DNA of 64,000 nt from Bugula neritina (lineage: Eukaryota > Bryozoa > Gymnolaemata > Cheilostomatida > Bugulidae), in the NCBI GenBank assembly GCA_964035545.1, contig OZ037767.1, positions 22,487,128 through 22,551,127 of the forward strand. The letters are read 5' to 3'. Made by a program: the position numbers and the translations under genes. The notes under the pieces are model-generated. The model searched no databases, had not been told where the DNA came from, and was given only the letters and a program-made list of their open reading frames with translations. Below are positions 9,880 to 51,589 of the stretch, piece by piece (the stretch's first letter is position 1; each line of letters begins with the position of its first letter).

Positions 9880-10584
9880 ATGCCTAGTAGAGGGAGTAAA
9901 ACATTAAGTTCAACGCCTTCATAAACACCTGGTTCAATTCATGAAAAATTAGATTTAATATTAGCAAGATTACATAACTTTGATTCCAGACTTAAAAAGT
10001 TAGAATACGAGCAAACGGAGATAACAAAAAGTTTAAACTTCATGTCAGAAGAAATGCAAAAATTCAAGGTTAATCTAAAAGGTGTAAACGCTAAAAAGAT
10101 TGTAGACTTAGAAAAGCAGTTAGATCAGCTAACCCACCATGGAAATAAGAAGAACCTGGTTATTGATGGAATTCCTTACAAAGCAGGCGAAGATATTTTT
10201 CAAGCAACTAAAGTGTTTTCAGATAAAGCGAGCTATGAATTCAACCCAAACACCGACATGAATAATCTTTACAGGATAAAAAAGTCAGACAAGATTGTAA
10301 TGAAATTTTTACAAATACGTAAGCGTGATAAATTTCTATTTAGTTGCAAGAGAGCAAAAGTTGTTGCTAGTGATTAAGGTTTCAAGTCAAACAAAAGCAG
10401 AATTTTTGTAAATGAAATGCAAACACCTGAACAAGCCGCTCTTCTTCATCAAGTCCGAACATATAAGAAGGAAAATGATTACAATTTTGCATGGACCAAT
10501 AACAACAGGATCTTTTTAAGAAAGACGTCAGACAGTGAGGTTATATCAATTAGAACTATGAATGATTTAACAATGTTGGGTTAG
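9880..10584 (+). pseudogene. LINE ORF1 (coiled coil plus RRM-like RNA-binding protein), broken
   Basis: Nucleic-acid-binding companion protein of the LINE. The frame opens with MPSRGSKTLSS and continues through a coiled-coil-like stretch (LDLILARLHNFDSRLKKLEYEQ). It then enters the NLVIDGIP and IRKRDKFLFSCKRAK blocks typical of ORF1 proteins of many invertebrate LINEs, and ends ...NDLTMLG. Two in-frame stops interrupt it: a TAA soon after the start (within TPS*TPG) and another TAA at 10375-10377. No frameshift was noticed. The start is the first ATG that stays in phase with the conserved part. Confidence 0.82.
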
Positions 10585-10699
10585 CTTTCTGTTACTTGTC
10601 TTTGACTCTTTTTTTTAATCACCTACGCAGAAATTCATGCCTGTGATTATATGTAAAGAATTTTCCACTAAAATTTTCAAAATAAATGTACAGGTACTG

Positions 10700-13542
10700 A
10701 TTTTTCTTGTCCTACAACATTTCTAAATATTAGTATTCAAAGCTTGTGCTCAAATTTTAAGTCCCTTGAAGTTTTTGTGAGTAGTGTTAATAAACCTTTT
10801 GACCTTATATGTATTACTGATACTTTTTGTATGATGCCGAGGCTAGTAATTATCCTTTAAATGGTTATGCTTTTGTAGGCAAACAACGTTTAACTAGAGG
10901 AGGGGGAGTTGGGGTCTATGTGCGCAATGGTGCTGCAGAGGCATTTAAATGTAATGATATCATGATAACTGGCACAGAATCCTTGCTATTGAAGTTGAGA
11001 GGTAGAGTCTTTAGCATGTTTGGATCGTTTCTCTGCCTTACTGTTGTCTACCGGCAGCCTTCCTCAGACACTGGTGCCTTTCTCTGCGATCTCGAGCGGT
11101 ATATTTTTACTAATAAGGGACACAGTCACGTTATATTGGGTGATATGAATATTGATACACTGAAATCGGATAGGGTAAGCCAAAATTATCTTAATATCCT
11201 TGCTAGCGCAAATTTCTCAAATGTTATTACTATACCGACTAGAATTAAATCCTGTATAGACCATATCAATATAAACTTTAACAACAAAGTAGTTACCTCA
11301 GGAACAGTGATGACTAAAGTTGTAGACCACCTACCAACATTTACTAGCTTTGAAAATGATAGTAGTCATTTTAAACCTACCGAAAACATCACATCCTTTG
11401 ATACAAACACTTTTTTAAAAGAACTGAGTAACATAAATTGGGAAAATGAAGTTTATTGTAAGCCCGAAGTTCACAGTAAATACAGTAGTTTTGCAAATAA
11501 TTTTTTAAATATTTGTTACAAGCACGCTTCTCTTGAAACACAAGAAAATAAGATTGAAATGCCGAAAATTCCTTGGATGACATTTGAAATTATAAAATTA
11601 ATTAATAAAAGAGATTATGTTTATAGAAAATTCTTACACTCTCCCTTCAACACTAAACTAAAACATAAATTTAAAACACTAAGAAACCAGGTATCTAAAC
11701 AGATCCGTGAAGCTAAAACTCGGTATTTTCAGACCATTTTTTCAGACATCAGAAGCTTCAAAATGTTGGAGAGTGATGAATGAGCAATTGGGAAAACAAC
11801 GCAAAATTGTTTCATCAGGGCCTAATCAGCTTTGCTACAACGGTTCTGTTTTCACAAGTGATCAAGACATAGCAAATTGTTTTAACAAATATTTCATATC
11901 AGTCAGAGCATCTTTGGCAAAAAAATTTAACAACCAGGCTGAGGCAACCAATTCTAAAATTACAGCAAAAAAGCCACATTATAGCTTTTAATTTTTACCA
12001 GTTTACAGCCAATATGTAGAGGCTTTGCTAAAAAACATGGATATTAAGAAAGCTACTGGTTTTGACCAAATGCCAGCAAAATTGATTGTAACAAGCGCAC
12101 ATATACTATCTATTCCTTTAACTCACATTATTAATGAAAGTTTCCAAAATGGCGTATTTCCAGATACTTATATGAAAATTGCAAAGGTAAAACCTTTACA
12201 CAAAAAAGGTATAACAACTGACTGTACCAATTATAGGCCTATTTCGATTCTTCCAGCTCTTAGCAAAATTATAGAAAAACTTATGAATTGCCAACTAACA
12301 AACTTTTTAGAAAGTGAAAATATTTTAAATCCTCAACAATATGGCTTTAGGAAAGACAAAAGTACTTCACATGCACTAGCTCAATTTACAAATAGTGTAC
12401 TGGAAGCGTTGAATGATGGAGATTCTGTGTCGGGAATATTTTTGAATTTTAGTAAAGCTTTTGATACAATTGACCATTGTATTTTAATTGATAAACTAAA
12501 AAGTCTCAATTTTTCAAACACTAGCGTTGCCCTTATTTCAAACTACCTTTCAAATCGTAAGCAACTTACTAAGATAAACTCACATTTTTCTAATTTAAAT
12601 GATATAACATGTGGCGTGCCTCAAGGCTCCATCTTAGGTCCCACCTTATTTTTGATTCACATAAATGATCTACCAACGGTTACTAAATTACTCGATCCAA
12701 TACTATACGCTGATGATACAAACTTATTCTTTAGAAGCAAAAATTTAAATTCACACATTAATACAATAAATGATGAATTAGAACTTATAAAAAATTGGTG
12801 CAACTTGAATAAACTTACTTGAAACGTAGAAAAGACAAATTATCTTGTATTGCAAACACCTCAAAACAACCGCAAACTAAACCTAAATTCAATAAAAATT
12901 GGCGACTCATATTTAAAAGAAACAAATTCAATCAAATTTTTAGGGGTTGAAATTGACAAATCTCTGTCATGGAATTTGCATATAGACAAATTGTGTAAAA
13001 ATCTGAGACCAATGATAGGAATGCTATTTAAATGTTCAAGTTTCTTACCAAGAAATGTGTTAATCGTAATATATAACTCTTTTATAAATTCCAAAATCAA
13101 CTATTGTCTTGAATCATGGGGAAGCGCAGCAAAAAGTTATATTAACCAAATCCACTTATTACAAAAGCAATTAGTAAGAATAATTTATGAAAAATCTCCA
13201 CTGACACACACTAAACCATTATTTTTACATTCCTTAACACTTCCTGTCCAATTACAATACAAATATAAATTATCATTACTTGCTCATCAAACCTTTTACT
13301 CCAATGATTCACATTCTTGCCACAATTACTTAACTAGAGCTGCCAAATATAATTTAAAACTGCCCAAACCTACAACCGCTTCCGGAAATCGCAGAGTGAG
13401 TTACCAGTGTGCATCCTTGTGAAATGGGCTGCCGAAGTCAATTCGTGCTGTTGCAGGAGATGGTGATTTCAAGCGTGCTGTAAAGTCTTATGCTTGCTTG
13501 GCTCAATGTAACTTGTTTGACTTTGTACTTTTAGACAGCTAA
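10700..13542 (+). pseudogene. LINE ORF2 (endonuclease and reverse transcriptase), broken
   Basis: Would nick target DNA and copy the LINE RNA. The endonuclease part shows SLCSNFKSLE, GGGVGVYVR, VVYRQP, HVILGDMNID and a degenerate VVDHLP. The RT part shows KVKPLHKKG, NYRPISILPALSKIIEK, QYGFRKDKST, GVPQGSILGP and the catalytic YADDT near 12705. Breaks: a frameshift near 10828, another near 11750, an in-frame stop after HYSF (about 11989), a TGA at 12820-12822 and one after QCASL (13420-13422). In RT motif A the usual Asp is replaced (FLNFSKAFD, AAT at 12445-12447), which by itself should abolish catalysis. Confidence 0.88.
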
Positions 13543-14667: not shown

Positions 14668-22203
<7,536 letters not shown>

Positions 22204-26864: not shown

Positions 26865-26872
<8 letters not shown>

Positions 26873-27077
26873 GAATTGAAATGACACAGTTAAAATTGAT
26901 AAAACATTTTATTACTAATAGTTTCATGTATGTTAAAATATACACTCTTCAGATAAAATGTTTAAATTTTAAACATTTAAACATTTTATCTGAAGAGTGT
27001 ATATTTTAACATACATGAAACTATTAGTAATAAAATGTTTTATCAATTTTAACTGTGTCATTTCAATTCTATTTTAT
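26865..27077. repeat. Perfect palindrome: 102-bp arms, 9-bp spacer, set in (TA)n
   Basis: Arms 26865-26966 and 26976-27077 are exact reverse complements by base-by-base reading. The spacer is TTTTAAACA. The left side abuts a TA microsatellite (26828-26866) and a second one follows at 27135-27191. It is probably a foldback MITE inserted at TA sites, or a recent inverted duplication. No coding capacity. Confidence 0.95.
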
Positions 27078-27195: not shown

Positions 27196-27599
27196 GATAG
27201 CATACATCGTATGCAATAGTAAATAATAGCAACCAATTAAACATGCTAAAAAAACTGCAATTATTGTCCCGAACTTACCATTTGAAGTATACAGTAAATA
27301 CTCTTATACAACTTCGAATTATTAAAGGAAGAACTTTCATTTAGCAATAGTTGAATATACATGCAATTGAAACAGAGTATGGGCAGAGGATATAATTGTT
27401 TAACGTGTATCGTATGTTAAATATCCTATTGATACCATATAGCCTATTAATTCATTTTATTTGAGTGGCTTTTGCAAGGCTCCTAAATATTACTATTCTA
27501 TACCTACTACCGTTATAAGTATCTGGTTGCTGCAGTTGAGCTAGATAAAGAATTGACACAGTGCCAGTTCATGCAGTTCAAAATATATGATCTGCTAGA

Positions 27600-28031
27600 A
27601 ATAGTTTAGTGCTCAAGAGCCAATGAAGTTTCTTGATTTCACAGCTTCCTTGTTAGTGGCGGTACAAAATACTTGACTTTTTGAAGCCAAATTTGGGGGT
27701 AACTGCTGCATTAATTATTAAAATGTCTTGTAGAAAACACAGCCATATGATTGGCTAATAATTTATATACTTGTACATCTCTAATTGTTTGCTTCCTGAA
27801 AGACACGTCTGGAACATTTATATTACATCACAAGCTTCCTGTTATATTTTGAATATACAGATTTATACGAATCACTCAAACACTATAAGGAAGTGTCTGT
27901 TAAACTTTCAAAATTCTGAGCATATATAAAGCAGCACACACAAGTATTCTAAACACAGACATCTACAACCACACCGGCCGGAGACACCTTCGCAGGCATT
28001 TTCTATCCAGAACAGAGCTGAAGTCTAAAAC
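27600..28031 (+). promoter_or_regulatory. Promoter and 5' UTR of BRICHOS gene 1
   Basis: A TATA box (TATATAAAG, 27923-27931) lies about 100 bp before the start codon. An inverted CCAAT-type motif (GATTGGC) sits near 27749. About 400 bp here is nearly identical to 33690-34108 upstream of gene 2, which fits retained promoter function in both copies or simply a recent duplication. Confidence 0.7.
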
Positions 28032-30422
28032 ATGGACAGCAAAGATCTGAAGGTAAATTAGTTGAAACAGCCGTTATATGCAAAGAATATTTCAACTATG
28101 TATACTATATAGTCTTGCAGTTGCTTGAATAAATGATATCATTTTATCCTATGCTGCATGCATTAATTTAGCACTGTAGAATTTCAATTTTAAGAATCTA
28201 GTTCAAAATTTGCTGGCATATGATAATTTATGCAACTTAAAAATTTACAATTATGTTCATTCAGCATGAAGAAAATAAATCTAAAGTGACAGGCAGATGG
28301 CAGGTGCTTGCTATGATTACTCTCATACTGGCAGTTCTACTGACAACTACTGTGGGTGTTATCATGTATATAGCCTTAAATCCTACAACTGGTTGTACTC
28401 AAAAAGTGACAGGACCCCCTGACTATGAAGAGACGATTCACGTGGTGAGTACAAATATTTAACATTCTCTATTCTTCTACAATGAACATTTACGTCATAC
28501 CACAGCATTTACTCATTGTATATAATATTATTACTATTATAATTATTATGTATCATTTATTCTGGACTTAGTCTTTATATATGCACTTAATCTTAATAAG
28601 TTAGCTTTAGACTAATCAACATTTATAGATTATTCTGTTATAACCCAACATTTAATGTTTCAGACCAACAAACCTGATGTACAACTGGCATTCAACAGCA
28701 AAGAAAATATTGCAATTTTAACCACTACAGATGGAGGTTTTGATCTGGAAGATTATGGAAAGGTAAAACCTTTAGCACTCAGTATTGTGATCTATATATT
28801 TGATATAGATATAATTGATCAATATTTGATAGATATAGCTTTGTTAATTAGTGCATTTGATTTATTATTTATGATAAAGGCACGAATCACAATGTTTGCT
28901 TGAATACACTTCATTTGCTGCTGCATTTCTAAATTTGAACTAGCTACATAGATGGCAAAATTTCTTTCAAACTAAAAATTTTTTAAGTCATGTTTCAAAA
29001 GCATCTTACAGCAGTATAAAAATGCAAATTTTTCATTTGATTTGATTTTTAAAAATTCAAAAAAGATCTAAAATGTTTTTCTTACAATTATTAAAAAAAT
29101 ATCAATAAAAGTCCATCACTCTAGTCCTAGTGGGTTAATCCATCTGGTGATGAAAGGCTTAGGATTTGTTTTCTATTGTGACTAATGTTCACTAATCCAG
29201 TGCTCAAACTATTAGATCACAACTGTTACCTAGAAAAGTCAATTCTAAATAATTAGTAAATTACATGCCTAATTATAAGAATAATGTACCATTTTAGTAA
29301 CTATGAAATTAAAGTTTTGAAAAATTGAGATAAGTTTTAGATCTAAGTTTAGGTATTCAAATAAAATAGGATAAAAAGTGTTTAAGCAAAGTGAGTAATT
29401 TTAATAGCTTAAGTTAAAAATGATTGCAACATGATAAAATAAAAGCAATACCAAAGACTATACAAAAAACTCTATGAAAGGTTTCTGTTGGTATATTTTA
29501 CTTGTATATATATTAAATAAACAGTGCTAGTAGTTATTTACAACTATGTATGTTTAGGGTATACACATAACCAAGGACACCAACTCTGGCATCTGTTACA
29601 TCCTACCATCCATAGTCTCTGCTGCTGATAGTCAAATACTCAGAAGACACTTCCAAGGTCAGCAGGTCAACGTGACAGCAGAATCTCACCTCACATCTGT
29701 GACTGTACATCCTGGGAAGGTCTCTGATACCAGTTTCATACCGACTGAGGCCAAGTCATTCTGCTTCAATGGCTACCAGTGGGTGACTATTTACCAAGAG
29801 ACAGCAAGCTCTAGTCATGGTAAGACATTTTTCTACTATTTTATTATGAGAGTTTAAATTATTTGCTCTGAAACAATGGCTTGCTTTGAAGTTCTATAAA
29901 AACAGAGCTCTGTTTTTTGAGCTCATTTGAAACCAATGCTTTTCAATACTTTAGGAGTTTTAACATAATGCAAGTAATGAACAATAGCATATATAAGCAC
30001 AAGTAAAATAAAATCAAGTTTAGTATATGCTATTTTTTTAGGAAAACAGGATAAGTGTTTTAAAGATGATTTCTTTTATAGAACTGTGGCTGTAATGAAA
30101 TATAACCAACATTGTAATTTCTTTTTCAAGAATATGTAATTGTTCTTTCTCATTAAATTGATAGATATATAATCATAAAAATATGATTTATGTTTTGGAA
30201 ACCCAAAAGTAGTATATATGCCTCAAGTTATAATATATTAAAATATGTAATTATGTATATACCCAAGTTTTCCTTTGTGTAAATGATGATTTATGTATGC
30301 TGAATACTTGTAAATGCTTATTGTTGATTTTACAACGTCTTCTCAATTTTGTAGAAATAGTGAAAAGAAGAATAAAGTGGCCTAAAATAACAATCACAAT
30401 AAAAATCACTATCAGGTTTTAA
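28032..30422 (+). CDS. BRICHOS-domain precursor 1 with C-terminal cationic beta-strand peptide
   Basis: Exons 28032-28052, 28265-28444, 28664-28762, 29558-29819 and 30355-30422 give 209 aa. Residues 1-18 are basic and about 20-45 are a signal anchor (type II). A linker with Cys51 follows. The BRICHOS-like region (about 70-180) has strand VQLAFNSKENIAILTT, an Asp-rich turn, GICYILPS (Cys113) and SFCFNGYQW (Cys169), the expected conserved Cys pair. NVT at 138 is a glycosylation sequon. The last exon encodes EIV-KRR followed by IKWPKITITIKITIRF and stop. BRICHOS domains chaperone strand-forming client peptides (proSP-C, Bri2), and in annelids the C-terminal clients are antimicrobial peptides. 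I infer release after KRR of a 16-residue amphipathic strand: Ile on one face, Lys/Thr/Arg on the other, with no cysteine. An antimicrobial role is inference; the domain call is good but made without a profile search. Confidence 0.85.
29105..29225 (-). mobile_element. SINE remnant in BRICHOS gene 1 intron 3
   Basis: The minus strand shows a degraded tRNA-like head and body (CAATAGAAAACAAATCCTAA, CATCACCAGATGG) matching the SINE at 58095-58260. The same remnant occurs in gene 2 at 35195-35315, so it was inserted before the duplication. Confidence 0.5.
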
Positions 30423-30682: not shown

Positions 30683-30795
<113 letters not shown>

Positions 30796-31231
30796 TAAAC
30801 TAACTTATGTCTTTATGTAATGTGTATTATTGGTATCTAATTTCTTGTTGAAAACAGTACTGCACGCTGTGTAATGGTTTTCTTTTTTCTAAAATGATAA
30901 CAATTTCTTATGGAACAAGCTTTATGTGTTGTTAGCTGTTGATTATATTATTGCTTTTCAAGTTTTCTAAACCAACAGGCCTTTGTTTAATATTTGTTTA
31001 TTATAATAAAGAAATCTTCAAGTAAAAAAATGTATTATAAAACCAGCCATTTAGGAAGATATTGAATAGATGACACAAGTGTTCCTGTTATGTTTAACTC
31101 AATGTTCATAACTATTGCACACATTCAGAATTTAAAGAATCTTTGACATGCTAGGTTTATATTGTAATAAATTAATCACATATATTTTGGCTGTCAGCTA
31201 GTTGTTGCTTCAAACATAGTATGCCTTAGCG

Positions 31232-33689: not shown

Positions 33690-34108
33690 TTAAGAGCCAA
33701 TAAAATTTCCCGGTTTTAGCGCTTTCCTTGTTAATGGCGGTACAAAATACTTGACTTTTTGAAGTCAAATTTGGAAGTTAATTGCCATAAATTATTAAAA
33801 TGTCTTGTAGAAAACACAGCCATATGATTGGCTAATAATTTATATACTTGTACATCTCTAATTGTTTGCTTCCTGAAAAACACATCTGGAACATTTATAT
33901 TACATCACAAGCTTCCTGTTATATTTTGGATATACAGATTTATACGAATCACTCAAACACTATAAGGAAGTGTCTGTTAAACTTTCAAAATTCTGAGCAT
34001 ATATAAAGCAGCACACACAAGTATTCTAAACACAGACATCTACAACCACACCGGCCGGAGACACATTTACTAGCATTTTCTATCAAGAACAGAGCTGAAG
34101 TCTAAAAC
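33690..34108 (+). promoter_or_regulatory. Promoter and 5' UTR of BRICHOS gene 2
   Basis: TATA box TATATAAAG at 34000-34008, at the same distance from the start codon as in gene 1. Nearly the whole interval aligns with 27600-28031, including the GATTGGC motif. Confidence 0.7.
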
Positions 34109-36240
34109 ATGGACAGCAAAGATCTGAAGGTAAATTAGTTGAAACAGCCGTTATATGCAAAGAATATTTCAACTATGTATACTATATAGTCTCGCAGTTG
34201 CTCGAATAAATGATATCATATTTTATCGTATGCTGCATGCATTAATTTAGCACTGTAAAATTTTAATTTTAAGAATCTAGTTCAAAATTTGCTGGCATAT
34301 GATAATCTATGTAGTTTATAAACTTGCAATTGTGTTCATTCAGCATGAAGAAAATAAATCTAAAGTGACAGGCAGATGGCAGGTGCTTGCTATGATTACT
34401 CTCATACTGGCAGTTCTACTGACAACTACTGTAGGTGTCATCATGTATATAGCCTTAAATCCTACAACTGGCTGTACTCAAAAAGTGACAGGACCCCCTG
34501 ACTATGAGGAGACGATTCACATGGTGAGTACAATCATTTAACATTCTCTATTCTTCTACATAAACATGCATGTCATACCACAGCATTTACTCATTGTATA
34601 TAATATTATTACTGCTATAACTGATATTTCACATATTCTAGATTTAGGGCTTTTATATGCACTTAATCTTAATAAGTGAGCTTTAGACTAATCAACATTT
34701 ATAGATTACTCTGTTATAACCCAACATTTCATGTTTCAGACCAACAAACCTGATGTACAACTGGCATTCAACAGCAAAGAAAATATTGAAGTTTTAACCA
34801 CTACAGATGGAGGTTTTGATCTGGAAGATTATGGAAAGGTAAAGCCTTTAGCATTCAGCATTTTGATCTATACTTGACGGTTGAGTGATCCAGGCATATA
34901 GATAGATAGCTTGGTTAATTAGTGGAATCTTCAGTAGCAAAATACTGCATTTAATTTATTATTTATGATAAAAATATGCATCACAATGTTTGTTTGAATA
35001 CATTTCATTTGCTGCTGCATTTCTAGCTTATAACTAGCTAGATGGTAAAATTTATTTCTAAATAACTTTTTTTAAAGTTATGTTTCAAAATCATCTTACA
35101 GCAGTATAAAAATGCAAATTTATCATTTGATTTGATTTTTAAAAATTGAAAAAAGATTCAAAATTTTTTTTACAATCATTAAGAAAATATTAATAAAAGT
35201 CCATCACTCTAGTCCTAGTGGGTTAATCCATCCGGTGATGAAAGACTTAGGATTTGTTTTCTATTGTGACTAATGTTTACTAATCCAGTGCTCTAACTGT
35301 TAGATCACAAATGTTCCCTAGAAAAGTCAATTCTAAATAATTAGTAAATTACAAGTCTAATTATAAAAATAATGTACCATTTTAGTAACTATGAAATTAA
35401 AGTTTTGAGAAATTGATATAAGTTTTAGATCTAAGTTTAGGTATTCAAATAAAATAGGATAAAAAGTGTTCAAGCAAAGTGAGTAATTTTAATAGCTCAA
35501 GTTAAAAATAATTGCAATGATACAATAAAAGCAATACCAAAGACTATAAAAAAACTCTATGAAAGGTTTCTGTTGGTATATTTTACTTATATATATATTA
35601 AATAAACAGTGCTAGTAGTTATATACGACTGTATATGTTTAGGGTATACACATAACCAAGGACACCAACTCTGGCATCTGTTACATCCTACCATCCATAG
35701 TCTCTGCTGCCGATAGTCAAATACTCAAAAGACACTTCCAAAGTCAGCAGGTCAACGTGACAGCAGAATCTCACCTCACATCTGTGACTGTGCATCCTGG
35801 GAAAGTCTCTGATACCAGTTTCATACCGACTGAGGCCAAGTCATTCTGCTTCAATGGCTACCAGTGGGTGACTATTTACCAAGAGACAGCAAGCTCTAGT
35901 CATGGTAAGACATTTTTAGTACTGTAATTCCTTTTTATAAAAATCTATTGTTCTTAGTCACTAAATTGTAAATTTATCATGAACATATTTAAACAATTGT
36001 TTATTCTTAAACATAGTGAAATATTTTAATATGATCACCCAAGTTACAGTATAAGAAAAATTGTAATACAACGTATACCTATAAGTTTTCTTTTGTGTAA
36101 ATGAGAATTTATGTACATTGAACGCTTGTAAAAATTTTATAGATCTTACTTTAAGTTTTCCAATTTTTGTAGAAATCGTGAAAAGAAGAATAAAGTGGCC
36201 TAAAATAAAAATCACGATAACAATCACTATCAGGTTTTAA
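34109..36240 (+). CDS. BRICHOS-domain precursor 2 with variant C-terminal strand peptide
   Basis: Exons 34109-34129, 34344-34523, 34740-34838, 35643-35904 and 36173-36240 give 209 aa, with the same exon sizes as gene 1. Same plan: seven-codon first exon, signal anchor, BRICHOS-like domain with Cys113 and Cys169, KRR site, then the last-exon peptide. Differences from gene 1 are few: V67M at the end of exon 2; AI to EV in strand NIEVLTT; R129K and G134S; and two swaps in the peptide, which reads IKWPKIKITITITIRF here. Net charge and the Ile alternation are unchanged, but the inner Lys moves from the middle towards the start of the strand. Open frame and splice sites are intact, so both copies are probably functional. 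Role inferred as for gene 1. Confidence 0.85.
35195..35315 (-). mobile_element. SINE remnant in BRICHOS gene 2 intron 3
   Basis: Counterpart of 29105-29225 in gene 1, at the same place in the intron. It marks an insertion older than the gene duplication. Confidence 0.5.
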
Positions 36241-38453
36241 TTCTATCTGTACGGTTCTACCCTTACTTTGCTGTGGGGAAAGCTACTTGGTTGACTGTAA
36301 AAACGTAGTTGTAGGTGCAGTGATGAAGAAATTGAGAAAAACTATGTGTTATAATAAGTTATAAATTTTGCAAAAAAGACTTTTTTTAGCAAGTTTAAAC
36401 AGAACTTATTTAGAAAATTAAAAAAATTAGGCTATCTTAATTTCTCCACTACTGCACCAACTGACAAAAGCATTTTTATATTATGCATATATTTTAGCTT
36501 TTATACATGCATCTCAATAAAATTATGTCTTTTTGTAATGTATATTACTAGGTATCTAGTACACTTTTAAATGCTTCATTCTTTCGCAAAATAATAACAA
36601 TAACTATTTTTATGGAACAAAATTGATGTATTATTATCTGTTAATTATTGTTATTAGTTTTTTCAAGTTTTCTATGCCAACATGCCTTTGTTTAATACTT
36701 GCTAACTATAATAAAAAGTCTTCATGTAGAAACAGTTATTATACAACTAGTCATTTAGGAGTGGGAAGTATTGAATAGAAGACAAAAGTGTTCCTACCCA
36801 ATTTTTAACTCATGTTTCATGCACATAGGAAAATTTTATGGCAGTGCTTGAGATTGTAATTGAGTTAACAAGATAATATTCTTTTAATTACTAAAAAGTT
36901 GTACTTTTCTGTTACAATTTCAGATAAATATTTTCATGTCGAGAAACCAAAATCAGTCGTTCACAAATTTATTAAATATATGTAAATACTTTCAGCTATA
37001 AAATTGTGCACCTGTAACCGCTTAATAATAGCAGCTACTGTCTGCATGTGAAAGGTTTCATAAACATAAAAAGTGCTAGAATTTTTGTTAAGCTGCAACG
37101 TTTTTTTCCATAGAAACTGTTTATTCTACTGATTTCTTTTTTAAGAACAACAGCCTAATAATTAAATAAAATACATTGCTGACAAATTTATGTATTACTG
37201 TGAAAGTAAGATGGAAACGTGTTGAATAAGTTGCATAATCTCACAAGTACAAATAAAAAAAGTTAGGCTTTTCTGCCATGAAAGTTTATACTAGGAATTT
37301 TTATAAAATAACCACAACAAGTCTGATGATTTGTAAAATTTTGGATACTTTTTAGGTAAATGGTTAACAAAGCTATAAAAAAATTTCCTAAGAGTCACTT
37401 AATTACTGCAATGTCAAATATATGTATGATTTTTACATTCGTTTAAAAGTTTATTTTGTTTTGTAAATAATTATACGAGCATTTGCTATCACATTATTGC
37501 ACATTTGCAACGTATTTATTTCATTGCTAATATTATAACTAAAATGTTTATATTATATATAATAGCTTAAAAACAAAACACTTGATTAATTTAGCAAATT
37601 TGCTAATATTACAAAAATGTTTACATAATATCACAGCTTTAGCTAATATTTTATTGATTTAGCAGTTTACTTGCAGTTTCTACATTTACAAAACTGCAAA
37701 GTAGGACAAGAAAGCATATAAACACTGCTGTGCCTTTCATTGTGCACCTGGCAAGTATTAACGTCTCAAAAGCAAACTAACTACCTTAGCTGCTGATGTG
37801 ATAGTATGCATACTGATAGGATATGTGATGTGTACTAAGTAGAAAAAAGGGCACTTGGAAATATTTTTAGCAAGTACTTGATGAAGCAATAATCATTTGT
37901 TCTACATGATGAAATGCTGGTACAGATATTATTAATAATTGTAAATCTTAAAATTTCGTGTTTCTTGTTGAACCTAATAAAGTATTTATTATTAAAAAAC
38001 AAGCTGATGGTACATCTTCTGGATAAAAAATGTATGTAATATAAAAATATTGATAATTTTTTACTAGCAAACCACAGAAGAATAAAAACCTTCAAGTATG
38101 ATCTAATTAACATTAAACTGATATTTTGAAATAAACATAATTTAAAAAAAAACAAAATCAATAAAGTGGCTAACAGTTTAAAAATGCTACACAAACTGGT
38201 TTTTAAAAAGAAAACCTTCAAGGTTTTGGTGATGACATTTGTTAATAACATATTTGTATACTCCAATAGAAAATCAGATAGCAATCAGTAGCGTATAACC
38301 ATTTGCTGCTGTGTATAAAGTACAGCTTGTCAGCTGATGTATTACAATATTGTCATTTCATCATAGTTCAATATATTATAAATTTTGTTCAGCATTATAG
38401 GACAGTGACATCTTAACATTATAGTTTATTATTCTAACTTAAGAAAGAACTGT
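36241..38453. other. Flank of BRICHOS gene 2 and 3' flank of copy A
   Basis: 36241 to about 37290 is the 3' UTR and flank of BRICHOS gene 2 (AATAAA at 36516-36521), matching the gene 1 flank with gaps. From about 37330 on, the sequence instead matches the 3' flanks of copies C (41555-42480) and B (45622-46640, inverted). A minus-strand AATAAA for copy A lies at 38425-38430. No gene is seen. Confidence 0.6.
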
Positions 38454-40430
38454 TTAGCTAGAAATTTGGCTATACTTATCAACTGTTTTTTTTAGAACTG
38501 TTACGCTAGGTTCGGGTTTAGCAGTGCCTCGGTTTACCTGAACACCATGGCTTGGTAGGGTTCTAGTAGTATGAGACCCTTGTCTTGCATTAGTATTATA
38601 TCTTGGCTTTGCAGTGGTGTAATACTTCAGTCTGTACCTGAACTTTCCTAAAATTACAAATAGCGACATAATATGTAGAAAACAAATTCATCTTGCTTTA
38701 AGCACAAACAAAGTAGGTAAGAGACTATGTTTATATTTTGAGCAGCATGAAGTTTTTAGTCTCTGTTAAAAAATAATTGCCTCCACTGGGAATTGAACCC
38801 GAGTCCTCTGGCTTGCAAGCAAGTGTGCTACCATTACACCACAGAGACTACCTGGTAAACTCAACACTACATCCCACCCAGTTCTCTGAACTCCACTGGC
38901 CTATCTACTACTCCTTCAGTCATCAGGCTTTCCTGGCCTCTCAACTCCCTCGGAGTACTGCAACTACACTTCACTAAAGGCCAAACTAGCTTGAAAAATA
39001 ATTGCCCCCACCGCGAATCGAACCCAAGTCCTCTGGCTTGCAAGCAAGTGTGCTGCCATTACACCACTGGAGCCACTGGGTAAACTCAACTCTACAACTG
39101 TCTAAGGAATTTGATACAGTTGACAGTTTTAAAATGGCTAATAGCAAATCTGAAATAAACACAATTTGTTGTGTTTAACAAAACAAAACAGATTAATTAT
39201 TAGTTTTCACCTGGTGGGTATAGACTAGGTCTTGTAGTAGGACCAGCTGTTGAACCAGTTATTGAACTCCATGTAGCTGTTGTTGGTGGTCCAACTCTAG
39301 CAGTGGGGGGACAGAAAGGTGTTGATGAAGATGGAGTTGATGACTCATGTTTAGGTTTAAAGTCACTGGCTCTGATATGTACTTCTATGGTTCCATATTC
39401 AGACAGGCCCTGCAAGTGATTGGTTAGTATAAACAGAAGTTGTAGATGTTGTGTGACAAACACATATAATGAGAGGTACAATGGGCAGGAGAGTATATAC
39501 ACATAAACTAATAGTATTTCAATATACATTATAAACCAGTAAGTGAGCTATGTGTCATTTTCTTTTTGTTGAGATATTGGAATTGTTGTTGTTAGATTTT
39601 CTTTACATTATTTCCAAGGAGTCATTTTTGTATGTTAGCATGTTTTCAAACCTCAATATAATTATTCTCATTTTTGTTTATTTCGAACATATACATATAG
39701 GCCTATAGTGAATTTTTTTTGTAAGGCCTTTTATGTTCTTTCAGATTTAGCATCTGCCTCGTGATATAACATACTTCTAGTAATTATCAACTGTATAGTG
39801 ACTGGAGACATTGCTGGCCATTACTAACATTTTTGATACGTTTAAAATTTTTTTACACATATGACTGTCTGCCAAACAAGTAAATAAAACAGCTTTTGAA
39901 ATTCATAAGTATAAGTATATAGCTATAACCTCACAGTGTCTATGTATCAAGCAAAGTTGACCATAATGTTACAATAACTATATATATTCAAGTACCCAAA
40001 ACCTTACATTAGTATTGTACAATTATGCACACAGTTTTGTATAAATGCAGAAAGTTGTCTAACACCTTTACTCACCTGAGAAGTAAGCTGAGGTAATAAC
40101 TTGTCAACGTCTAAAGTCAGGGTGGCCACAACTGGGTCCTAGAATTCAAAACAAACTATACAGCACCTTGGTGAAAAAAATTCAGATTGTTTGTAAGCTC
40201 AATAGCAATTAAAAACTTTCTTAAATGACAATTTGGTCAATCTTATACAAAATAAATCAATAGTATAGTTTTTTCTGATAAGATTTGAAACTTTTTATCG
40301 TCATGTATAATAATTTGTGCCAATAGTAAATGAGGATAGAATAAAATTGGGTTGTGTTACTTACACTTTCTGCAATTGTAGAGCTGAAGAATGTTACCAG
40401 ACAGAGAACCAGCTGTATCGAAAGATCCAT
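38454..40430 (-). CDS. Secreted repeat-tail protein, copy A (minus strand)
   Basis: Minus-strand exons 40365-40430, 40076-40138, 39211-39409 and 38454-38647 give 173 aa. Exon 1 is a signal peptide (MDLSIQLVLCLVTFF...AES). Exon 2 reads DPVVATLTLDVDKLLPQLTSQ. Exon 3 opens GLSEYGTIEVHIRASDFKPK and runs into a Ser/Thr/Pro-rich, probably O-glycosylated, linker ending SLYPPG. Exon 4 is basic and Tyr-rich (KFRYRLKYYTTAKPRYNT) and more diverged than in copy B. I do not recognise the family. It should be secreted. Frame and GT-AG sites are intact, so it may be functional, although the TATA box seen upstream of copy B is degraded here. Intron 3 carries a 340-bp insertion with two tRNA-like segments. 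Confidence 0.75.
38761..39100 (-). mobile_element. Insertion with two tRNA-derived segments in copy A intron 3
   Basis: Compared with intron 3 of copy B, about 340 bp are extra here. Within it, minus-strand segments near 38778-38850 and 39000-39076 both read like tRNA bodies: TGGTGTAATGGTAGCACA (D arm), TTGCTTGCAAGCCAGAGGAC, then GGGTTCAATTCCC (B box). The anticodon stems do not pair properly, so they are tRNA-derived SINE heads or pseudogenes, not working tRNAs. Confidence 0.65.
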
Positions 40431-43817: not shown

Positions 43818-45621
43818 ATGGATCTTTCAATACAACTGGTTCTTTGGCTGATGGCATTCTTCGGCTCTACAATTGCAGAAAGTGTGAGTAACACAACCCT
43901 ATTTTATTCTGTTCTCATTTACTACTGACCTAAAATACTATTTATACAGAAAGTTTAAGAATTTCAAATCTTGTCAGAAAAAACTATAATATTGCTTTAT
44001 TTTGCATATATGTGTGGTTGATCAAATTGTCATTTAAGAAGGTATTTAATTGCTATTGAGCTTACAAACAACCTGAATTTTTCTCAGCATGGTATGTTAT
44101 AGTTTGTTTTGAATTCTAGGACCCAGTTGTGGCCACCTTGACTTTGGACGTTGACAAGTTATTACCTCAGCTTACTTCTCAGGTGAGTGAAAGTATTTGA
44201 AGACTTTCTGCATTTATACAAAACTGTGTGCATAATTGTACAATACTAATGTAAGGTTTTGGGTATTTTGTATTTTTAATTGACTCAAGGTCACATGACT
44301 TATACTTGTTCTATATTATATAGCTATTGTAATATCATGGTCAACTTTGCTTGATACATAGACACTGTGAGGTTATAGCTATACAGTTATACTTATGTTT
44401 TCAATAGCTGCTTTGCTTACTTGTTTGACAAACAGCTGTTATATATGTGTAACAAATATTTTACAAGCATAATTATGGTCAGCAACTTTATTAAGTAACT
44501 ATGTACTTGATAATTACTAGAAGTACATTGTAATATATATATCACAGCAGATGCTAAATCTTCAAAAACACGTATGCTTTACGCCAAATATTATTTAATA
44601 TGTGATATTTTTTCTATATAAATTACCTGAAAACTATTGTTGTGTTGTATAAATACTCACTATAGATATATGTTCAAAATAAACAAAAATAAAAATATAC
44701 TGCCGTTTGGATGCACACCAATTTAGGAAAACCGCTCCTTGGAAATAGTATTAAAAAATCTAGCAATTTAAAAACTCTAATATCTCAACAAAAAGAATAT
44801 TGTTTGAAGTTTTAGTATTGCATATTGCTCACTTACTGGTTTATAATGTATATTGAAATACTATTAGTTTAAATGTATATACTCTTCTGCTCATCTTACC
44901 TCTCATTAAATGTGTTAGTCACACAACATCTACAACCACAGTTTATACTAACCAATCACTTGCAGGGGCTGTCTGAATATGGAACCATAGAAGTACATAT
45001 CAGAGCCAGTGACTTTAAACCTAAAGAGAAATATCTTCAACATGAGTCATCAACACCACTCTGTCCCCCCACTGCTAGAGCTGGACCACCAACAACAGCT
45101 ACATGGAGTTCAATAACTGCTTCACCAGCTGGTCCTACTACAAGACCTAGTCTATACCCACCAGGTAGTAACTAATAATTATTCACTTTGTTTTGTTAAA
45201 CACAACAAACTGTGTTTATTTCAGACTTATTGCTAACTATTTAAACTGTTTAATATTGTCAAATTGCTTAGAGAGTAACTAAAAAGCTTTATGCTGCTCA
45301 AAATATAAACATAGTCTCTTACTTGCTTTGCTCGTGTTTAAAACAAGATTTGGTTTGTTTTCTATTATGTCACCATTTGTAATTTTAGGAAAATTCAGGT
45401 ACAGACCAAGATATTACACTACTGCAAGGCCAAGATATTACACTACTGCAATGCCAAGGTATTACACTACTACAAGGCCAATAGGTTATAATAGTGTGAG
45501 ATTGAGATACTATACTACAAGCCCAATTAGCAGTGGTATCGAGGCAAACGTGCGAACTGCTAAACCTGCTGTTAGCCGAAAAGATCTACAAAATACAGCT
45601 GATAAGTATAGCAAACCTTAA
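43818..45621 (+). CDS. Secreted repeat-tail protein, copy B (Arg-Tyr-Tyr-Thr repeats)
   Basis: Exons 43818-43883, 44120-44182, 44966-45164 and 45389-45621 give 186 aa. Signal peptide MDLSIQLVLWLMAFF...AES is followed by exon 2, DPVVATLTLDVDKLLPQLTSQ. Exon 3 starts GLSEYGTIEVHIRASDFKPK, then a Thr/Pro/Ala-rich linker with one Cys. Exon 4 holds 8-residue repeats of the RPRYYTTA type (three good copies plus a decayed RLRYYTTS), then a tail ending LQNTADKYSKP. The tail is strongly basic and Tyr-rich. The family is unknown to me. A secreted structural, adhesive or defensive protein is possible, and nothing in the sequence decides between them. AATAAA at 45649-45654. Confidence 0.8.
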
Positions 45622-49475: not shown

Positions 49476-51589
49476 ATGAACAGCACAGCAGTGATATTAT
49501 TTCTGGTTGCAATATGCAGCTTTTCAAGGGCAGAAAATGTAAGTCAGTTACTAAACCAATGAAATTAATATTAAGCTGTTATTTTCAGTGAGATTTATCA
49601 ACTATATTTTACACTCATAAAGATAACTATTTCATACTTTTATACTTGTACTATTGAAATTTCTTTTCTATTAGGATGACTGTTTAATTTGTGCTAATAA
49701 AGAAGATTAGGTAAACATTTGTAATCTTCAATCTCAAATCACAGTTCTATTTTTACTTCCAGGACCCGGTTGTAGCAACTTTGAGTTTAGATGTGGACAA
49801 ATTTCTGCCTCAATTTTTCCCAAAGGTGAACCAGCCACTCTGAGTGATACAGACTCAAAAGTAGAGAAATTTATAGATTTAGAAACTTTTTAGGAGTTAC
49901 CTAATTTTTATGCGTTGGTTTAAAATTTGCTCTACATATGCACACAACTGCGTTGTTTCAGCTATACATTTGCCAAACATAAAAGCGCAATAGAATCACT
50001 TCATAGCTAAATGTCATTTACATTTGTAAGGAACATGTGTGTTAAACAGGTTAAACTAAATACGTTTTTATCACAAGATAAAAAATCAAGTTTATGATTT
50101 TAAAATCTGTCATTAATCTGTCGATTAATGTTGTATTATTTAATTGCTACTCACTAAAACTTTGTTCAAGTAAAATCTTTACTTGAAGTGAATCTAAAGT
50201 TATTTTAGAATCTTCTGAAAAATAGCATTACTTAGTTTATCTTTAGAGTAATAGATTGCAAGTCTATTAATTAAGTAACAACATATAATTTCTAGCTTTT
50301 TTTCAGCTAAGTTTCTATTAGATAGTAGCTAGGTCTAATGCGCTTGTGCCTATCTTGCTATATGACTACCTGTTTGTGTAACCCAGCTTACTAGAATTTT
50401 AGCAAAGGCGCAGGCACTTTTGGTTCCTGGAAATTTTGCTCCACTTGAGTATTGGGTAAAACCTATAAAATGAATTTACTTTAATGTTTCGATCTAGGGT
50501 TTTCCTAGTTGTGAAACCTTAGAGGTTAAAATCAGAGCCAGTGACTTTAAATTAAAAAACACGTCTCCTGAGAAACAGGTATCTGCCCAGTTCCATCCTA
50601 CCACCACCAGACCATCACCATCACCATGGGTACCACACCATTTCTCTACCACCACCAGACCTTCACCATTACCATGGGCACCACACCATTTCTCTACCAC
50701 CACCAGACCTTCACCATCACCATGGGTACCACACCATTTCTCCACCACTACCAGACCTTCACCATCACCATGGGTACCACACCATTTCTCTACCACCACC
50801 AGACCTTCACCATCACCATGGGTACCACACCATTTCTCTACCACCACCAAAACTTCATCATCACCATGGGTACCACACCATTTCTCTACCACTTCCAGAC
50901 GTACATCAAGAACTAGAATAAGACCCACCAATGCACCAGCTGTTTCAATGGAGAGAAATAGTCATAGTGAGTAACAGTTGATAGCAAAAATGCAACACTT
51001 TGTGTACATAGTGGTTGCTTTGAACCATTATATTTTGTGAATTGGTGTAGTTTGTGTAAATGGCTTTGAACAACTAATTTTCAATTGCATAAAAACGTGT
51101 TCTCAATTCTGTACAGAACTCTTGTCTTTTAATTATATAAATTATAGAGTCCTAGGCTCATGCTTTTAGCCTCAAAAAGGGCCTGCATTGTTAAATGGTG
51201 GTTTCTGAGATTATATAAACTGCAATAGTAAACTATTTACAATTACATTTCAATGGCACTTGATAAACTAGTTGTGTCGCCATCTTAGTTTATGACTTCA
51301 ACACATGAGACCTACAGACATCAGTTGTTTAGTATATTTTCTCTATTATATCAAGTGTATATATATATGATCTTTGTATCCTATGTAGCTGTACAGTTTC
51401 ACTGGTCTCTAATCATGCGTTATATGCAAGCAGTAAATTTGAGTGCCATTCAAAAACTTTTCTATTTATTCAGGTTCACCACCAGTACCTCAAGGAGCCT
51501 CAGGGTTCAGTGGCAATGTGAACAATCCTCGATTTGGTCCCAGTTTTCAAGTTTTGAAAGATTTAGCAAATAATGCTGCTTCAATATAA
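49476..51589 (+). CDS. Secreted repeat-tail protein, copy E (Pro/Trp/His 16-residue repeats)
   Basis: Exons 49476-49538, 49763-49825, 50498-50966 and 51474-51589 give 236 aa. The N-terminal plan matches copies A and B: a signal peptide (MNSTAVILFLVAICSFSRAEN), then DPVVATLSLDVDKFLPQFFPK in an exon of the same 63-base length, then GFPSCETLEVKIRASDFKLK. The tail is quite different. Six tandem 16-residue units RPSPSPWVPHHFSTTT (48-bp DNA repeat, about 50604-50890) lie inside exon 3, followed by an Arg-rich bridge (RRTSRTRIRPT). A short final exon ends NPRFGPSFQVLKDLANNAAS plus one Ile. Low Lys, high Pro/His/Trp/Thr. Probably secreted, function unknown. The repeat reads open on the minus strand too, which is a by-product of its 48-bp period. 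Confidence 0.78.
50600..50895 (+). repeat. 48-bp coding minisatellite in copy E exon 3
   Basis: Six units of about 48 bp encode RPSPSPWVPHHFSTTT. Most differences between units are silent or conservative, and the last unit is the most altered (TKTSSSPW). Confidence 0.92.

Follow-up and report, generated by a model that had tools for sequence, protein, structure and literature searches.

The BRICHOS protein ITM2B/Bri2 combines a type II membrane anchor, a BRICHOS domain, a convertase site, and a short C-terminal peptide, which is released and contains cysteines. The ITM2 genes are few and conserved, and to our knowledge ITM2B/Bri2 is not a family of defence peptides. BRICHOS precursors of a second kind, the BRICHOS-AMPs, are known from annelids. 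In 2019 they had been identified in polychaetes only and were disulfide-bridged β hairpins, as stated in the available part of that account (PMC6780910). The same part describes arenicin, alvinellacin, and capitellacin precursors as having a BRICHOS proregion and a C-terminal peptide (PMC6780910), and preproalvinellacin adds a peptide encoded by the last exon and a tandem duplication, according to the portion of its description available to us (PMC5431198); these features recur in the gene models analyzed here, with a very likely BRICHOS region.

Two cysteine-free families of BRICHOS peptides were reported in 2023 from the annelid Heteromastus filiformis (PMC10745061). The accessible text of that report presents HfBRI-20/-23, of 20 and 23 residues, as amphiphilic, as probably a β-hairpin pair (probably salt-bridged) released from transmembrane precursors, and as similar to synthetic (VR)n hairpins (PMC10745061). 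Synthetic peptides of the [XZ]n type ([IK]4, [IR]4, [IRIK]n) are man-made alternating hydrophobic/cationic strands with no cysteine and a fully charged polar face, and they are aggregation-prone when long, as given in the available part of the source (PMC8757834).

Here, we analyze a tandem pair of bryozoan genes in a window of 64,000 nucleotides, the whole stretch of DNA under study (positions 22487128-22551127 of contig C3), within a 216-Mb genome that set the scope of the genome-wide searches. Both genes share with HfBRI-20/-23, as far as the accessible text describes these, a probable transmembrane precursor, a very likely BRICHOS region, a dibasic site, and a predicted cysteine-free amphiphilic β peptide, a likeness drawn from the description (PMC10745061). 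The window peptides differ from HfBRI-20/-23 in having 16–17 residues, in containing WP, in forming a single long strand, and in coming from another phylum. The first-pass annotation of this DNA knew of no described peptide of this form; as worded, that statement is not supported, because the idea of a cysteine-free BRICHOS peptide is already in print, as the available part of the 2023 report makes plain (PMC10745061). BRICHOS strand-peptide precursors are apparently new to Bryozoa. Neither a bryozoan BRICHOS peptide nor alternative client exons were found in a literature search lying outside most subscription journals and preprints, and the available text of papers mentioning both BRICHOS and Bugula names Bugula only as a fouling target. 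The paper that combines BRICHOS with bryozoans does so just in its references, and, to judge by title, the matches listed for alternative splicing of antimicrobial BRICHOS genes deal with other subjects. One broad literature search on natural alternating strands returned, among the matches listed, no natural single long Ile/Thr/Lys strand with WP.

The reading that we favor, and consider probable, is that the tandem pair encodes bugulid BRICHOS-type precursors of a host-defence peptide. The precursor would be inserted into the ER membrane in type II orientation, and its BRICHOS region would hold the C-terminal strand as a client and prevent it from aggregating. A furin-like convertase would then cleave after Lys-Arg and release a 16–17-residue cysteine-free amphipathic strand, RIKWPKITITIKITIRF, which would act in host defence by assembling into β-sheet on membranes, those of bacteria being the likeliest targets. 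This reading builds on the gene structure, a conserved last exon, a KR site seen in the sequence, and a family with other last-exon clients; from these it predicts membrane topology, BRICHOS fold, chaperoning, cleavage, assembly, and antimicrobial action, defence being its weakest step. The bryozoan client is probably a defence peptide of a kind so far reported from marine worms and from chemists' designs. Such a family would extend BRICHOS-AMP precursors to Bryozoa, and would give synthetic alternating strands a natural, genetically encoded set with a chaperone-type domain in the precursor.

Gene structure and the BRICHOS-like region

Gene 1 (28032-30422, + strand) has five exons, with all four introns bounded by GT..AG and in phases 0, 0, 0, and 1, and encodes a 209-residue protein. 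Its features, in window positions, are the following.

27923..27930, + strand: TATA-like box of gene 1; the identical sequence lies 5' of gene 2 at 34000
28032..28052, + strand: exon 1, encoding MDSKDLK; this seven-residue exon is identical in gene 2 and reads MNSKEIQ in the C2 paralog
28265..28444, + strand: exon 2, encoding the short N-terminal end, the membrane helix, and the first part of the linker
28304..28378, + strand: likely transmembrane segment, residues 21-45, read from the sequence; charges suggest N-in
28664..28762, + strand: exon 3, linker and first part of the BRICHOS region, with the conserved Asp97 at 28751-28753
29558..29819, + strand: exon 4, carrying Cys113 (29594-29596) and Cys169 (29762-29764) in the BRICHOS core; phase-1 donor
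30355..30422, + strand: exon 5, the last exon, encoding the client; phase 1, 68 bases, EIVKRRIKWPKITITIKITIRF then stop
30363..30368, + strand: Lys-Arg, likely proprotein-convertase site; KR stands before 13 of the 14 tails read
30369..30419, + strand: likely mature peptide RIKWPKITITIKITIRF, of 17 residues, or 16 without the first Arg
30794..30799, + strand: AATAAA, the first exact poly(A) signal 3' of gene 1

The spliced five-exon model ends in KRR-IKWPKITITIKITIRF and a stop, as the first-pass annotation had read it, and the gene models of gene 1, gene 2, and the C2 paralog all agree with its further claim that the client is encoded by the last exon. The membrane-anchored, BRICHOS-type layout that it proposed is likewise borne out by the sequence, although with a BRICHOS match below the cut-off. 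Gene 1 has the layout of a BRICHOS-AMP precursor, that is, an N-terminal hydrophobic region, a BRICHOS-like proregion, a dibasic site, and a C-terminal peptide. Its product is probably a type II membrane protein, to judge from the predicted helix and its flanking charges, and both structure models of its ortholog P0001 have a helix at residues 3-45.

Gene 2 is a tandem copy at 34109-36240 with the exon plan of gene 1 and the tail EIVKRRIKWPKIKITITITIRF.

34109..34129, + strand: gene 2 exon 1
34344..34523, + strand: gene 2 exon 2
34740..34838, + strand: gene 2 exon 3
35643..35904, + strand: gene 2 exon 4, BRICHOS core (Pfam BRICHOS, 15.4 bits, E 0.022)
36173..36240, + strand: gene 2 exon 5, EIVKRRIKWPKIKITITITIRF then stop

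DNA identity between the two genes is 91% over 27582-29832, to just past exon 4, and 74–77% in two aligned pieces beyond. The sharp drop past exon 4 (91% to 74%), at 29819-29832 against 35904-35917, resembles the boundary of a gene-conversion tract. A simple pattern search upstream of gene 1 and gene 2 found neither NF-κB-like nor AP-1 sites.

The region between anchor and tail is very likely BRICHOS, judging from its profile matches and conserved residues. A search of the 209-residue product with PF04089, the check proposed in the first-pass annotation, did yield a match, but at E 0.073 and 13.7 bits against a curated BRICHOS cut-off of 25 bits. Pfam scans of 15 query sequences, two being exons of proteins already scanned, gave PF04089 matches in four, all under the cut-off (13.7–15.4 bits) and over most of the profile, the other three being gene 2 (E 0.022), the Bugula neritina protein P0002 (E 0.04), and a paralog with a four-Cys tail (E 0.051). 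The remaining 11 queries, P0001 included, had no BRICHOS match. Since BRICHOS had been named before the scan, we used the single-family chance value, which by arithmetic is E divided by 24736 models, or ~1e-6 to 3e-6. CD59 matches in Pfam were set aside because what they align to is the membrane helix and linker.

The conserved residues of the BRICHOS superfamily are two Cys and one Asp, the Asp preceding the first Cys in 97% of single BRICHOS domains, according to the part of the source available (PMC9627735). Cys113 and Cys169 are invariant in all seven rows of our alignment, and Asp97 is kept in six, the exception being the four-Cys paralog, which has Leu. We take Asp97 to be in register with D148 of Bri2. 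P0001 and P0002 both carry the UniRef name BRICHOS domain-containing. Two AlphaFold models of P0001 reached pLDDT values of 47.8 and 60.8, with a pTM of 0.51 for the better one. No BRICHOS chain appeared among the 31 Foldseek rows of the first, weak model, which were noise, or, for the second model, in the best 50 of 166 Foldseek rows and the best 50 of 592 VIA-aligned chains, and sequence searches of the PDB gave no BRICHOS match. A genome-wide scan with the BRICHOS profile was uninformative, as it gave no match in the genome or in any of the 14 controls.

The last exon and its predicted peptide

The tails of gene 1 and gene 2 contain no Cys, which supports the cysteine-free amphipathic strand proposed for the C-terminus. 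A disulfide-bridged C-terminal peptide, as set out in the available part of the 2019 description (PMC6780910), is found in neither. Arenicin, alvinellacin, and capitellacin are disulfide-closed hairpins, whereas the window tails lack Cys and those of a gene cluster at 12.2 Mb on C2 have four or five.

Fourteen tails were read, two annotated B. neritina tails included. The one tail not preceded by KR follows RR, in a broken C2 copy near 29.424 Mb, and the residue right after the dibasic pair is, tail by tail, R, R, G, V, R, K, K, K, K, G, R, Q, R, and E. Because KR is conserved and the following residue varies, we place the cut after KR, so that the peptide probably begins with the third basic residue of the window tails. 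Cleavage had been proposed at KRR; the dibasic site stands, but KR and not KRR is the conserved part.

The strand was also said to alternate strictly, which holds over ITITIKITIRF after WP but not before the proline, where I and W sit in the opposite register, so that the flip falls at Trp-Pro. Hydrophobic and other residues alternate at 15 of the 16 steps of RIKWPKITITIKITIRF, and 17 of the 24310 arrangements of eight hydrophobic and nine other residues (7e-4) alternate as well or better. The β moment of the whole tail was matched by 989 of 5000 shuffles for gene 1 and 1007 of 5000 for gene 2, and falls short of significance because the register flips at WP. The corresponding counts, each out of 5000, were 274 for P0001, 474 for the C9 copy, 3104 for P0002, 4003 for a four-Cys tail, and 167 and 15 for the two tails of a C2 gene.

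Past the proline, the polar face of gene 1 consists of Lys, Thr, Thr, Lys, Thr, and Arg. As Thr makes up half of this face, the net charge is moderate (+5; +3 in P0001); it ranges from +3 to +7 over the tails of the window copies, P0001, and C9. In contrast to synthetic [XZ]n peptides, the window peptides are encoded, have Thr at half of the post-proline polar positions, contain a WP kink, and come with a chaperone-like domain in the precursor. We infer that the aggregation seen with long synthetic strands would be eased both by a chaperoned precursor and by the Thr residues of the polar face.

The coding sequences of gene 1 and gene 2 differ in 16 codons, nine of which (9/16) are silent differences. 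In exon 5 there are two silent and two coding changes, the latter being a reciprocal Thr/Lys swap at polar positions that leaves all Ile residues and the net charge unaltered. Divergence amounts to 4 of 68 sites (5.9%) in exon 5 against 137 of 497 (27.6%) in its flanks (Fisher p 1.7e-5). Exon 5 is thus conserved inside diverged flanks, which argues that the last exon is constrained; alternatively, a short conversion tract spanning exon 5 could have produced the pattern. The constraint test matters because short dibasic frames behind AG are common, the + strand of the window holding 11 peptides of 12–30 residues with KR or RR near the start behind pyrimidine-rich AG sites, and it is through its conservation that the tail of gene 1 rises above chance.

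The tail might instead be translated low-complexity, hexamer-like sequence without a role of its own. The strand is indeed coded by four near-repeats of a hexamer (ACAATC, ACAATA, AAAATC, and ACTATC units), and the C9 copy reads past its missing stop into another repeat. However, the conservation of exon 5 within flanks diverged by 27.6% and the recurrence of the tail design in P0001 make this explanation very unlikely.

No further phase-1 last exons with KR or RR were found for gene 1. A candidate extra last exon of gene 2 at 38068 was dropped, since its likeness to the gene 1 tail was reached by 266 of 2000 shuffles and the window holds 11 such peptides.

Related genes, their clients, and possible roles

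With E values of up to 10 allowed, the genome-wide search returned 33 exon-level places. Four sites in the genome matched a DNA pattern for K-R-(R or like)-I-K/R-W-P, three of them the known tails; the fourth, at C5 12717320, reads KRSIKWPTMPNFVF with no strand and was taken as chance. In the C9 copy, exon 4 carries a frameshift, and the tail, EIVKRRIRWPRIRIRIRVLIR, has no stop at the usual place and runs into a repeat. Arg predominates on its polar face, and of the five Ile past the proline it retains four (IRWPRIRIRIRVLIR).

A protein search of 5.8 billion sequences gave four proteins with E values of up to 1, each of them from B. neritina. The best of these, P0001 (EB796_003392), has 209 residues and ends in KRGIKWPKIKITITITINF (EIAKRGIKWPKIKITITITINF), with the tail design of gene 1; its identity to the query is 93% across 94% of the query length. 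The window therefore comes from B. neritina or a closely related bryozoan. P0002 (EB796_015074) carries past its KR, at residues 170-186, the tail VAVQEPKTDVVIIIIVT, which is Ile/Val-rich, ends in VVIIIIVT, has a net charge of -1, and is in our view reminiscent of the SP-C client. This tail was absent from the loci read and had no convincing counterpart among the 30 genome places listed, where so short a query could be missed.

A C2 gene near 29.414 Mb (C2:29413770-29416625) is open across five exons and has two candidate last exons, which start 228 bases apart, are both phase 1 behind AG, and code for GIVKRKADVTIEIKLIIKK and GVEKRKADVSIEIKIVVKF. AATAAA signals lie after the first of them and before the start of the second. 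The two tails, ADVTIEIKLIIKK and ADVSIEIKIVVKF, carry opposite charges on an alternating strand, with net charges of +2 and +1 including the preceding Lys. A C2 copy near 29.424 Mb, in the other orientation, has a broken exon 4 and still shows remnants of the two last exons.

The C2 12.2-Mb cluster, at C2 12250000-12289000, comprises five BRICHOS-like copies, one of them inverted, with tails past KR that contain four or five Cys, for example, RVSCYNRYYCYIIFRRAYCYVRRICTIRG. In the three sequences followed across exon 3, namely L045 and L048 of this cluster and P0011 of B. neritina, Leu replaces the conserved Asp, and Asp, Glu, or Asn stands one place earlier. A further BRICHOS-like cluster at C6 10964000-11021400 has a probable signal peptide and possible phase-1 donors, and no last exons were convincingly found for it. 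Proteins similar to this cluster, P0005-P0010, occur in metagenomes. At C5 8129000-8375000 there are seven fragments resembling exon 4; each is interrupted by an in-frame stop at one shared position, and they are probably a duplicated pseudogene piece.

Within this one genome, then, the same phase-1 junction and KR lead either to cysteine-free tails or to tails with four or five Cys. The first-pass annotation had called the window client a different design; a cysteine-free client is real, but it co-exists with tails of four or five Cys and so represents one branch of a family and not a separate design. A broader reading, which we offer tentatively and somewhat doubt, is that of a chaperone cassette with exchangeable client exons at one phase-1 junction (cysteine-free alternating strands, mixed-charge strands, and four-Cys hairpins), in which a single locus with two alternative last exons would make two clients. 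The window clients would then correspond in nature to the synthetic [IK]n/[IRIK]n β-strand antibiotics, with a built-in chaperone solving the aggregation that limits the long synthetic forms. Together with the Arg-rich copy and the locus with two last exons, the window pair forms a series in which one could ask which features of a client BRICHOS recognises and how cells store a peptide expected to form fibres.

The layout itself, with type II anchor, BRICHOS, convertase site, and short strand-prone tail, is also that of Bri2, and would suit an ITM2/Bri2-like membrane protein whose BRICHOS ectodomain and shed peptide regulate other secreted proteins, the tail being no defence effector. The genes described here, however, are tandem, expanded, and partly broken, with diverse last exons, whereas ITM2 genes are few and conserved, and we regard such a role as quite unlikely.

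The net charges of the sister tails, those of the C2 gene (+1 and +2) and of P0002 (-1), fit a bactericidal role less well; the P0002 tail is also hydrophobic, and some members of the family may thus have a different function. The property common to these tails is strand propensity and not cationicity, as would be expected if the released strand were a self-assembling structural or adhesive peptide, a functional amyloid of cuticle, mucus, or adhesive, whose assembly BRICHOS delays until secretion. We nevertheless consider a structural peptide in place of an antibiotic unlikely, because the tails of the window copies, P0001, and C9 are cationic (+3 to +7), and because tails with four or five Cys that resemble hairpin AMPs are found on the same type of precursor. 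Past the same junction, these Cys-containing tails match the annelid BRICHOS-AMP pattern as laid out in the available parts of both reports (PMC6780910, PMC10745061), and host defence is still the role that we favor for the window peptides.

Other features of the window

About 1 kb 5' of gene 1, at 26869-27073, lies a MITE-like inverted repeat flanked by TA microsatellites. ORFs at 39200-39547 (- strand), 44873-45175 (+ strand), and 50498-50974 (+ strand) have in common an 'EV.IRASDFK.K' stretch followed by Ser/Thr/Pro-rich sequence, with no Pfam matches. An exon at 21323-21724 has a LicD-like match (PF04991, E 0.0015, below the cut-off), and a tRNA gene (Rfam RF00005, 39 bits) is located at 38778-38848 on the - strand. 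LINE-like ORFs occupy 9925-13422, with a reverse transcriptase match at 11992-12819 (PF00078, E 8.9e-29).
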